Shown in pieces: positions 18,996 to 21,718 of a stretch of 56,786 bases of DNA. The stretch is taken from the NCBI GenBank assembly GCA_016791145.1, contig JAEUNJ010000005.1, forward strand, positions 1-56,786. The letters are read 5' to 3'. The notes beneath the pieces were generated by a model, which saw nothing but the letters and a program-made list of their open reading frames with translations, did no database searches and was not told the origin of the DNA. The translations under genes were made by a program, and so were the position numbers. This DNA is from Rhodocyclaceae bacterium (GTDB taxonomy: Bacteria > Pseudomonadota > Gammaproteobacteria > Burkholderiales > Rhodocyclaceae). How positions within the stretch are numbered: the stretch's first letter is position 1; each line of letters opens with the position of its first letter.

Positions 18996-20096
18996 TCAGA
19001 AGTCGCCCGTGAACAGGGGCAGTGTTTCGGGTATCCGGTCCCGCTCGGCCAGGTAATCCTCCCGCCGCACCAGGGAACCGACGCGCACCCCCAGCAGGCG
19101 AAGGCGACGTTCAAGGGTGACCCGCTTCAGGCATCCGCCGGCCGTCCTGCGGATGACCGTCGGATCGGCGGTGGGCTCCGCAAGGGTGTGGTCGCGACTG
19201 AGCGTGGTGAAATCGTCGAAACGCAGCTTGATGCCGATGGTCCGGCCGAGCAGCCCGCGACGGGCCAGGTCCGCCGCCACCTGTTCGCAGAGCCGGGTGA
19301 ATACCGCGCCGAGTGTCGCCCGGTCGGCCACCGGGTGCAGGTCCCGCTCGAAGGTGGTCTCGCGGCTCCGCGAACGGGGTTCCGATTCGGTGACGACGGG
19401 ACGCTCGTCGCGGCCGTGGGCGGCATCGTGCAGCCAACGCCCGTAATTCGGGCCGAATCTCCTCGCCAGGATCACCGGATCGCAGGCGGCCAGGTCGCCG
19501 ATCGTGGCGACCCCCATCCGACCGAGCCGTTCCGCTGCCTTCGGACCGATGCCATTCACGCAGCGGACCGGCAGCGGCCAGATGCGGGCCGCCAGGTCAC
19601 CCTCCTTCAGGACGGTCAGGCCGTCGGGCTTCTCCAGGTCGGATCCTATCTTCGCCAGCAGCTTGTTCCCGGCGATGCCGACGGAACAGGTCAGCCCGGT
19701 GGCGGCGAGGATGGCGGCCTTGATCCTCGCGCCGATCTCGACGGCGCCGCCGGGCACGCCGTCCAGGTCCGCATAGACCTCGTCGATGCCCCGGTCCTCG
19801 ACGGCCGGCGCGATGGTCGCGATGGCCGCCTTGAACATCCGCGAATAGCGCCTGTACTCGTCGAAATCCACGGGGAGGAACACGCAGTCCGGACAGAGTT
19901 CGAGGGCCTGCCGCATGGGCATCGCCGAACGCACGCCGTAGCGCCGGGCCACGTAGTTGGCGGTGGTGACCACGCCCCGCCCGCGGGGATCACCGCGCCC
20001 GCCGATGGCCACCGGCCGGTCCCTGAGTTCCGGCCGCCGCAGGAGTTCCACCGAGGCGTAGAAGGCATCCATGTCCACGTGGGCGATCCGGCGCAT
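18996..20096 (-). CDS. dinB: DNA polymerase IV
   Basis: 366-residue Y-family translesion polymerase. HVDMDAFYASVEL carries the first catalytic Asp and GIDEVYADLD the Asp-Glu pair (Gly where Ser is usual). VTTANYVARRYGVRSAMPM and SVGIAGNKLLAKIGSDLEKPDG are family blocks, and KAAERLGRMGVATIGDLA is the helix-hairpin-helix region. The C-terminal ETLPLFTGDF supplies a beta-clamp-binding LPLF motif. It is divergent from the RHH gene, with 108 bp between them. Confidence 0.96.
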   Translation of the reverse strand: MRRIAHVDMDAFYASVELLRRPELRDRPVAIGGRGDPRGRGVVTTANYVARRYGVRSAMPMRQALELCPDCVFLPVDFDEYRRYSRMFKAAIATIAPAVEDRGIDEVYADLDGVPGGAVEIGARIKAAILAATGLTCSVGIAGNKLLAKIGSDLEKPDGLTVLKEGDLAARIWPLPVRCVNGIGPKAAERLGRMGVATIGDLAACDPVILARRFGPNYGRWLHDAAHGRDERPVVTESEPRSRSRETTFERDLHPVADRATLGAVFTRLCEQVAADLARRGLLGRTIGIKLRFDDFTTLSRDHTLAEPTADPTVIRRTAGGCLKRVTLERRLRLLGVRVGSLVRREDYLAERDRIPETLPLFTGDF

Positions 20097-20176
20097 GGCA
20101 GAAGTTTACCCACCCGCCGCGCCGACCGGACGGGTACGTCCGATTGCGACGGCAGGCGCTTCCAGCCATAATTCCC

Positions 20177-20188
20177 GAATCCGGCTTC
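20177..20188. promoter_or_regulatory. Near-palindromic GAATCCGGCTTC upstream of the RHH gene
   Basis: GAATCCGGCTTC differs by one base from the perfect palindrome GAATCCGGATTC found 90 bp downstream, inside the RHH coding region. It sits 17 bp before the RHH start in the dinB/RHH divergent region, a natural operator position. Function is inferred from repetition and place only. Confidence 0.4.
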
Positions 20189-20204
20189 AGAAAGAGAACC
20201 CACC

Positions 20205-20654
20205 ATGAGCTCCCGGCGGAGGACCGCGCCCGAGACCCAGTTTTCCCTGCTGGCACCAGGTTTCGAGAATCCGGATTCAAAACCGGAAAAATCGCGTGAC
20301 AACAACAAGAAATCCGAAATTTCACATGTTGCGCAGCCGGCTACGAAAAAGCCGGCGACGTCGCGCGACCAGACAGGTCGGCAGCCGGCCCTCCCCGGCA
20401 TCGCCGTTCGCGGGCGACCACGACTGCGGGTGAAGCGCAGCGCCTCGGAACGGGCGGCGGCCAGCCGCAGCCAGCGCGAGGCCGACGGGAGCCGCCGCGT
20501 GGAGGTGATGCTCGACCCCGACACCCTTGCAGCGCTGGATTCCCTCGCCCAGGCCGACGGCACCACCCGCGGCGAGGTGGTATCCCGGCTCATCCGCAAC
20601 GCCCACCGCCGCCGGCGGGCCATCCCGGCCGCGGCGCGGGACGGGCACGCGTGA
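20205..20654 (+). CDS. Ribbon-helix-helix (Arc/CopG-like) DNA-binding protein with a disordered N-terminus
   Basis: 149 residues. Residues 1-~95 are polar and low in hydrophobics, with a noticeably lower GC stretch (codons 20-55). The C-terminal RRVEVMLDPDTLAALDSLA followed by GTTRGEVVSRLIRNAH fits a ribbon-helix-helix fold: a beta strand that reads the major groove and two helices. RGRPRLRVKRSASERAAASR is a basic linker. The next gene, 58 bp downstream on the same strand, is a CarH-type cobalamin-binding protein lacking any DNA-binding domain. I infer that this gene could supply the DNA-binding half of a two-protein regulator. Confidence 0.7.
   Translation: MSSRRRTAPETQFSLLAPGFENPDSKPEKSRDNNKKSEISHVAQPATKKPATSRDQTGRQPALPGIAVRGRPRLRVKRSASERAAASRSQREADGSRRVEVMLDPDTLAALDSLAQADGTTRGEVVSRLIRNAHRRRRAIPAAARDGHA
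20267..20278. promoter_or_regulatory. Perfect 12-bp palindrome GAATCCGGATTC
   Basis: A perfect inverted repeat within codons 21-25 of the RHH gene, matching the near-palindrome at 20177-20188. RHH proteins bind short palindromes as dimers of dimers, so the two copies could be autoregulatory operators. The match could be chance. Confidence 0.35.
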
Positions 20655-20712
20655 CCCGGGAGGCGAGCCTCCCGCGAGGAACCCCGAACGATCCGCATCG
20701 AAGGAAGATTCC

Positions 20713-21369
20713 ATGGTCAGGACAACGACCGCATCGATGGACAGCCCGCCGTTCGACCGGTTGCGGGCGACCCTGGACCTCCTCAGGTCCCGCGACACCC
20801 AGGCCCTGCGTTCGGCGCTGGAACGCCAGTTGGCTTCGGACGGCCTGACCGCCTTCGTCGAAGGGACGCTTGCCGACCTGGTATTCGAGGTCGGCGAGGC
20901 CTGGAGGCGAGGCGATATCCAAGTCTTCGAGGAACATTTCTTCTCCGAAACGGTGCGCGGCGTGCTCGAGGCGGCAACCGCGCCCCGCGCGGTGCCGGCG
21001 GGCGCGCGCCGGGCCGTCCTGACCACGCTGCCGGGGGAATTGCACACGCTGGGACTCGCGATGGTCCACGCCCTTTTCGCCGACGCGGGGGTGGAGTGCA
21101 TCGTGCTCGGCGCCCAAACGCCCCTCCGGGACGTGGTGGAGGCGGTGCGCGCCTATGACGCGGGCCTCGTCGGCCTTTCGTTCAGCGTCGAGTATCCGGC
21201 GGAACTCATATCGTCGTCGGTGTCCGTCCTCCGGACGATGTTGCCACCCGCGACGGAAATCTGGCTGGGCGGCGCCGGGGCCGGTCGTGCGACCGGGTTG
21301 CCGTCAGGCGTGCGCGTGTTCGATTCAGCCGCGAACGCGACCCGGGCCCTGCTGCAGGCGGCCCGCTGA
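20713..21369 (+). CDS. Stand-alone CarH/LitR-type cobalamin-binding (photoreceptor-like) protein
   Basis: 218 residues: a four-helix B12-binding cap (~10-90) and a Rossmann-like B12 domain (~98-215). Two diagnostic motifs are intact: W64-x9-E74-H75 (WRRGDIQVFEEH), the cap motif of adenosylcobalamin photoreceptors, and E109-L-H111-T-L-G114, the ExHxxG motif whose His is the lower axial ligand. The residue after W64 is Arg; in Thermus CarH a His there ligates cobalt after light exposure. GLVGLSFSVEYPAELI and LGGAGAGRA complete the fold. Unlike CarH there is no MerR helix-turn-helix, and an RHH DNA-binding protein precedes it. AAGGAAG lies before the ATG. Confidence 0.82.
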   Translation: MVRTTTASMDSPPFDRLRATLDLLRSRDTQALRSALERQLASDGLTAFVEGTLADLVFEVGEAWRRGDIQVFEEHFFSETVRGVLEAATAPRAVPAGARRAVLTTLPGELHTLGLAMVHALFADAGVECIVLGAQTPLRDVVEAVRAYDAGLVGLSFSVEYPAELISSSVSVLRTMLPPATEIWLGGAGAGRATGLPSGVRVFDSAANATRALLQAAR

Positions 21370-21385
21370 TCCGCCCGCCGCTGCG

Positions 21386-21718
21386 TCATTGCAGCGGGTC
21401 GTCCCGCCGTACGAGTTGCAGGCCCAGATGCACCACCGTGGCCCGGTGGCCGAGGACGACGACGCTGCCGCGGCGACGGTTGTCGCCCGTCTCGCTGAAT
21501 TCAAAGTGATAGATCCGCCGCGGCTTCAGCCGCCCTTCGTCGTCCCGGTAGGGCCGCAAAGAGCCCAGCGCGACCGTATCGTCGAGGAGTTGCAGGCCTT
21601 CCGATTCGCAGGCCCGGCGCGCCGCCTTGACGGCCTCGTCCCGGGCAAGCAGGCTGTCGTGCCAGAACCAGGCCAGCCCCCCCATCAGCACCAGCGCGAG
21701 GATTTCCGGCCACGGCAT
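21386..21718 (-). CDS. DUF3301 family membrane-anchored protein
   Basis: 110 residues with one N-terminal hydrophobic segment (EILALVLMGGLAWFW), then DEAVKAARRACESEGLQLLD and RRIYHFEFSETGDNRRRGSV, the conserved wording of the DUF3301 family of gamma- and betaproteobacteria. Function is unknown; it is probably an inner-membrane-anchored protein. It may be co-transcribed with the short ORF immediately upstream. Confidence 0.8.
   Translation of the reverse strand: MPWPEILALVLMGGLAWFWHDSLLARDEAVKAARRACESEGLQLLDDTVALGSLRPYRDDEGRLKPRRIYHFEFSETGDNRRRGSVVVLGHRATVVHLGLQLVRRDDPLQ

Follow-up and report, generated by a model that had tools for sequence, protein, structure and literature searches.

Can the light-sensing domain of a cobalamin photoreceptor reside in one protein, and the DNA-binding function in a second protein of unrelated fold? 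The question is raised by two adjacent genes of a Rhodocyclaceae bacterium (assembly GCA_016791145.1, contig JAEUNJ010000005.1, positions 1 to 56,786; this stretch of 56,786 nucleotides, as a whole, is called the window). The first gene encodes a ribbon-helix-helix (RHH) protein, the second, after a gap of 58 bp, a short protein featuring a CarH-type domain for adenosylcobalamin (AdoCbl), called here the B12 protein. Sequence comparisons suggest that the RHH-B12 pair is a real and rare two-gene unit, probably recurring, and that it may form a split B12 photoreceptor system, light control and contact between the two proteins being predicted. With respect to known split B12 systems, the new parts would be the RHH reader fold and its predicted operator. 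The positions of the open reading frames, the gap and the divergent dinB gene had been given in an earlier annotation made from the letters alone (the sequence-only reading), and are correct; the RHH, B12 and dinB domains have been confirmed by Pfam.

20205..20654, + strand: RHH protein gene (149 residues)
20713..21369, + strand: standalone CarH-type protein gene, predicted to bind AdoCbl, without DNA-binding domain (218 residues)
20746..20976, + strand: four-helix bundle of the B12 protein (residues 12-88), with GxxW (61-64) and E74-H75
21010..21363, + strand: Rossmann part of the B12 protein (residues 100-217), with G108-E109-L110-H111, G133xxxP137 and G186-G187

The B12 protein and its relatives

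Two Pfam domains, B12-binding_2 (residues 21-87) and B12-binding (residues 100-189), were found over cut-off in the B12 protein. The motifs W64-x9-E74-H75 and E109-x-H111-x-x-G114, already singled out in the sequence-only reading, have been verified by alignment with Thermus CarH (W64, E74, H75, E109, H111 and G114), in which G108-E109-L110-H111 corresponds to the lower ligand. The light-responsive cobalamin-binding signature of SignatureFinder (GxxW, EH, GxxH, GxxxP) is complete (G61xxW64, E74H75, G108xxH111, G133xxxP137). The B12 motif of class I LitR/CarH proteins is ExHx2G-x41-SxV/T-x22-27-GG (PMC8156234; statements referred to this paper, and to PMC10442372, PMC9144470, PMC5362033, PMC9758184 and PMC10979010, concern excerpts of their texts). 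E109xH111xxG114, the 41-residue spacing to S156 and the 27-residue spacing to G186-G187 are all present, and S158 occupies the V/T place. No MerR domain was matched in the 218 residues, nor, at E<=1, in the longer frame that starts at the upstream TTG at 20527 (280 residues, overlapping the RHH gene); a wrongly annotated start or a MerR remnant was rejected. A corrinoid methyltransferase partner was also rejected, as the CarH model scores 59 bits and the MtbC model 32, both under cut-off. By sequence, the open reading frame 20713-21369 thus encodes a complete CarH-type domain, which would bind AdoCbl.

The Arg following W64 had been taken as a hint of different photochemistry. The change is real, R65 being aligned with H132 of Thermus CarH, but not special: His next to the Trp, the light-state ligand, is found in 1/121 sequences (the B12 protein of the window, P0001, and 120 listed homologues) and is not a defining residue among them, Arg in 3/121, and the motif is missing in 1/121. 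CtMerR, which is light-responsive, carries Arg at this place, and its anaerobic light structure lacks the bis-His state (PMC11796333). In turn, the H132A mutant of Thermus CarH is still mostly tetrameric in the light (PMC10442372). For these reasons the Arg matters for the mechanism, but does not set the B12 protein apart.

A search of 5.8 billion proteins returned 138 relatives, the best 120 of which were listed. Among these, P0002 (95% identity) and P0003-P0005 (60-61% over the alignment) are standalone proteins like P0001, and the next-best relatives are MerR-B12 proteins of about 300 residues, up to 49% identical. P0022, P0025, P0044, P0055 and P0056 were not counted as standalone, being by eye MerR-B12 proteins cut short, mostly with MerR-end residues at the start. 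In a quick tree of 130 rows, midpoint-rooted and made after exclusion of P0101-P0121 (P0109, one of these, also lacks the motif), a branch separates the five standalone proteins from the other rows (SH-aLRT 99, stem 0.47); together with one family locus and eight MerR-B12 proteins, they fall in a 14-row group (SH-aLRT 81). As P0002-P0005 are standalone and belong to the same group, the pattern is more than chance; the short form likely arose from a MerR-B12 protein by loss of the MerR domain. W64, E74 and H75 are invariant in all five standalone proteins. R27, A116, H119, E160 and A206 are also invariant in the group, and different in most MerR-B12 rows.

B12 matches at E<=1e-20 were found in 187 of 395 genomes of the family; among the matches listed, all but that of the window reside in open frames of at least 297 residues. 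At 1e-60, P0005 has no match in the 307 other family genomes at least 93% complete. Two genome-contig scans and one viral-contig scan yielded no relative. A plasmid search yielded B12 relatives of less than 60% identity, mostly CarH or MerR-type (best 20 of 37), and no RHH match.

The RHH protein and recurrence of the pair

The RHH protein has a disordered N-terminus, a conserved LPGIAVRGRPRLR stretch at residues 63-75, and an RHH fold at about residues 98-139, matched over cut-off by Pfam RHH_1 (residues 98-135). CopG, Arc and NikR are repressors of the same RHH/CopG type, with which the protein shares the fold and, probably, autoregulation at a palindrome. The protein differs from them by the extra LPGIAVRGRPRLR stretch, and is a member of a distinct RHH subfamily. 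We know of no B12-type partner of RHH/CopG-type repressors. In the database searched, the family numbers at least 462 proteins, and most of the 120 listed are nameless or hypothetical. Searched with the RHH alignment, the PDB sequences gave no match at E<=0.1. PHROGs matches the RHH protein as a transcriptional regulator or repressor, and leaves the B12 protein unmatched; a phage or defence element was rejected, neither protein having a PADLOC match.

Recurrence of the pair has been evaluated by comparing the sizes of the longest contigs that carry each protein cluster. RHH cluster P0125 and standalone B12 cluster P0005 share a longest contig of identical size (48,482 bases), as do P0126 and P0003 (4,364 bases). 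Hence 2 of the 4 other standalone B12 clusters are matched, each with an RHH protein of the subfamily of the window, although between the lineages identity is only about 60% for the B12 proteins and about 50% for the RHH proteins. None of the 114 other listed RHH clusters matches the contig size of a standalone B12 protein, nor do the 6 subfamily RHH clusters coincide in contig size with any of the 116 other listed B12 proteins. In the background of other RHH by other B12 clusters, 3 short sizes coincide in 13,224 pairs, none of 3 kb or more. The pair therefore probably recurs elsewhere. A lack of co-occurrence, which the sequence-only reading had held to speak against a split system, is contradicted by the two exact size matches, although the short form is missing from the 307 family genomes mentioned above. 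At 10 other family RHH loci (7-13 kb each), tblastn found no B12 match at E<=1. At two RHH loci (L084 5651-5908, L086 3053-3310) a gene for 85 residues, SemiSWEET-like by eye, has a 4-bp overlap with the end of the RHH gene.

The promoter and the palindromic boxes

20144..20172, + strand: sigma-70-like promoter of the putative RHH-B12 operon, TTGCGA-17-CATAAT, the sole promoter-like site in 19950-21700
20177..20188, no strand: probable operator GAATCCGGCTTC, palindrome with 1 mismatch, lying between the -10 (4 bp away) and the RHH ATG (16 bp away)
20267..20278, no strand: perfect palindrome GAATCCGGATTC inside the RHH gene, possible second operator, 90 bp downstream of the first box
20701..20707, + strand: AAGGAAG, which ends 5 bp before the B12 ATG and likely serves this gene as ribosome-binding site
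18996..20096, - strand: dinB (DNA polymerase IV), divergent neighbour, Pfam-confirmed

One promoter-like site was observed in 19950-21700, against 0.1 expected from shuffles. This single promoter ahead of the RHH gene, and AAGGAAG before the B12 ATG, make it probable that both genes belong to one operon. When 20060-20760 was scanned for repeats, the scan detected TTCCCGAATCCGGCTTCAGAA at 20172-20192 and TTCGAGAATCCGGATTCAAAA at 20262-20282, which contain the two boxes. In the window the palindrome GAATCCGG(A/C)TTC occurs, at no more than 1 mismatch, 5 times (0.87 expected, both strands counted); GAATCCGGATTC is the only exact copy in the genome.

The same box is found before RHH genes of another genus. 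With up to 2 mismatches, it lies within 90 bp ahead of 9/11 RHH genes (two exact, three with 1 mismatch, four with 2), the scoring word being derived from the perfect copy of the window, and in one of these (L082) it is the variant palindrome GAAACCGGTTTC. Random 90-bp stretches contain the box in 0.8% (same loci) or 1.5% (AT-matched) of cases, true sites included. By genus, the box precedes RHH genes in 4/6. In 7/9 box-bearing loci, 1-4 bp separate the box from the end of a preceding -10-like hexamer. RHH starts were set from the family model; in L083 the position so chosen is no start codon, and for the hexamer test the starts of L082 and L087 were shifted by one codon. The spot just behind the -10 is a classic place for a repressor site. 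Place and recurrence of the box before RHH genes both argue for self-repression, and make it a probable autoregulatory operator of the RHH protein.

The genome contains 30 box sites at no more than 1 mismatch, of which only the RHH promoter site (good) and L128 (weak, 4/6) adjoin a -10-like hexamer. The pattern read backwards gave 0 sites, but is by composition a poor control, and the number of sites alone is therefore no evidence. The box search of this genome revealed no wider regulon, and the sequence evidence points to the RHH-B12 operon itself as the target. In the sequence encoding the RHH N-terminus, the codons at and beside NPD are similar to the operator box (window 20267-20278; L090 with 2 mismatches, L088 with 3), and NPDS is kept in P0123, P0125 and P0127; the intragenic second operator may be conserved.

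A split photoreceptor and its alternatives

According to the sequence-only reading, sensor and DNA reader are one chain in known systems. This holds for CarH and LitR. In CarH/class I LitR (Thermus thermophilus CarH, 5C8D) the MerR DNA-binding domain, missing in the B12 protein, is in the same chain; Arg replaces His132 here, and the predicted reader, encoded by the neighbouring gene, is an RHH protein. CtMerR of Chloracidobacterium thermophilum (8JBS, 8JBT; PMC11796333) is likewise described as a MerR-family protein with its own DNA-binding domain. The statement fails for AerR-CrtJ, in which B12 sensor and DNA reader are already separate (PMC9144470, PMC5362033). Like the B12 protein, AerR/PpaA (R. 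capsulatus, 7TE2) is a B12 domain standing on its own, with a four-helix cap and a Rossmann fold. The two are only 15% identical, the partner CrtJ/PpsR is a PAS plus helix-turn-helix (HTH) protein whereas the adjacent gene here encodes an RHH protein, and in the long form of AerR, unlike in the B12 protein, the upper ligand is provided by an N-terminal residue, His10. The AppA SCHIC domain, which works with PpsR (R. sphaeroides; 4HEH, 4HH3), is 15-17% identical and binds heme, not cobalamin (PMC9144470). PmSB-LOV and PmlR2 (class II LitR) are, as here, a light sensor and a DNA reader encoded by separate, adjacent genes, but the arrangement is reversed, the sensor being a flavin LOV protein and the reader of MerR type (PMC9758184). 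Photocobilins (SasPcob, 8J2W) carry a bilin-binding domain, and the excerpts of PMC10979010 mention no RHH partner. Partner domains named in PMC11796333 are HTH, DGC, bilin-binding, GAF and MEDS; the word 'ribbon' does not occur there. An RHH reader for a B12 sensor was not found in the literature searched (B12-binding domain with ribbon-helix-helix/CopG family), largely papers free of subscription.

The preferred reading, to which we give an even chance, is that a CarH-type AdoCbl domain without reader is encoded behind a self-repressing RHH protein acting at GAATCCGG(A/C)TTC, and sets this repression according to light. An RHH dimer would bind the box just behind the -10 (20177-20188), repressing the operon, and probably also the perfect copy within the RHH gene (20267-20278). 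The AdoCbl-bound B12 protein would, in the dark, form oligomers, as CarH and CtMerR do, which bind the RHH protein and hold it on both boxes; on illumination with green or blue light the Co-C bond would break, the oligomer change and the promoter become free. The genes, their domains and signature residues, the box with its recurrence ahead of RHH genes, and the equal contig sizes are observed; predicted elements of the scheme are that both genes share an operon, that the RHH protein binds the box and the B12 protein AdoCbl, that the two proteins touch, that light is the signal, and that the dark state represses, the last being the least certain. Operon, recurrence and the known AerR-CrtJ scheme make the B12 protein a natural candidate for the sensor partner of the RHH protein. 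Short and long forms of AerR drive CrtJ in opposite directions (PMC9144470), and therefore the effect of light could go either way; dark co-repression follows CarH. A more elaborate version is possible, though short of probable: a CarH-derived photoreceptor shed its MerR domain and took up an RHH partner, so that the dark AdoCbl oligomer would clamp RHH dimers on palindromes 90 bp apart, possibly with a DNA loop, and open in the light, driving an unrelated fold in trans.

If the scheme is correct, the CarH light domain is detachable in nature, and can be coupled to an unrelated DNA-binding fold by protein contact, as in AerR-CrtJ. The result would be a compact candidate light switch (149 plus 218 residues and a 12-bp box). 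Thanks to the predicted operator, the idea is open to test with no more than the two proteins in pure form and a single DNA fragment; the box also gives part of the RHH family a probable function, autoregulation.

Several points weigh against the scheme. Adjacency in the 48,482- and 4,364-base contigs is read from equal sizes, not from DNA. Two of the 4 other standalone B12 clusters (contigs of 1,849 and 3,903) lack a size match, as do 4 of the 6 subfamily RHH clusters (6,569, 866, 1,487 and 2,754; the first is the near-copy of the window itself). Of the 308 family genomes of highest completeness, only the present one has the short form. The RHH tree is built on few columns, and the subfamily of the window carries a long-branch warning. 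In the B12 protein, the V/T position of the classic SxV/T element is taken by Ser (S156-F157-S158), and R65 renders CarH-like light disassembly less sure, since Thermus H132A stays largely tetrameric (PMC10442372). Two of the 11 RHH genes (L088 and L083) have no box; a weak -10-like hexamer (4/6) is found ahead of their best word too, and the hexamer alone is therefore not specific. Six of the 11 come from one genus, and the count does not represent 11 independent events. The box also precedes RHH genes without B12 neighbour, and therefore supports RHH autoregulation rather than B12 control. No output gene besides the pair was found. As a whole, the split between sensor and RHH reader proposed by the sequence-only reading is partly supported, by the CarH-type domain without reader, the probable recurring link with RHH and the probable operator.

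The same box data fit an alternative which we regard as unlikely: the RHH protein merely controls the operon, and the short B12 protein acts through another partner, most likely in mixed oligomers with a second B12 protein of this genome, as light-dependent subunit or decoy. Such a protein exists on contig C167 (L092 9004-14626). It is a full-length MerR-B12 (LitR-type) protein of 306 residues, with MerR_1 over cut-off, two B12 domains under theirs, and 40% identity in the B12 part. Its gene is divergent from heme oxygenase and bacteriophytochrome-PAS-GGDEF-EAL genes, possibly making up a B12 plus bilin light locus. CarH domains self-associate via the B12 domain (PMC8156234, PMC10442372), but a mixed interface is doubtful at 40% identity, and the company that the B12 gene keeps with one RHH subfamily would be left unexplained. 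A MerR-type regulator elsewhere, which the sequence-only reading had held to speak against a split system if it pairs with the B12 protein, is thus present, yet nothing points to such a pairing. Given the C167 locus, and a photolyase gene on another contig, the organism plausibly responds to light.

Still less likely, the pair senses the supply of AdoCbl or cobamide instead of light, the B12 protein reporting cofactor level to the RHH protein. The genome has an AdoCbl-type enzyme, methylmalonyl-CoA mutase, and no light-response gene was seen among scanned neighbours; against this, none of the five standalone proteins has lost the light-marking cap residues W64 and E74-H75, and Wx9EH is said, in the excerpts of PMC8156234, to be absent from MetH.

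That the genes are chance neighbours without joint function is very improbable. They are not together in any other family genome searched, and their pairing in the partner contigs is deduced from size; but the two exact matches are confined to the matching subfamilies, at only about 60% (B12) and 50% (RHH) identity.

The least probable alternative, control of dinB by the pair on light or UV, stems from the 108-bp intergenic region shared with dinB (the box at 20177 starts 81 bp from the dinB start) and from two RHH relatives adjoining an umuDC-like pair or a LexA-like gene, but RHH or B12 genes flank 0/24 other dinB loci, the region has no LexA (SOS) box, and no promoter-like site was found on the dinB strand in 19950-21700. 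The 24 loci were drawn from 41 genomes, about 1.5 kb of flank being read and some being cut by contig ends. The SOS motif is defined by the LexA box CTGTAAAACAATACAG of the lexA gene of this genome (L094, 1456). The RHH protein scores 18.6 bits with the NCBIfam model of YbfE-type, LexA-regulated RHH proteins (cut-off 62). Contrary to the sequence-only reading, the dinB/SOS link was rejected, and dinB is probably outside the RHH-B12 system, a side effect via the shared region being possible.

The two RHH relatives reside in genus g20, one convergent to a LexA-like S24 protein gene (L089 5541-6549), the other to the umuDC-like pair (L090 3866-6014). At a further locus (L004 1177-1860), unrelated to the RHH-B12 pair, a corrinoid protein gene is followed by a methyltransferase gene, UroD/MtbA-type by eye.
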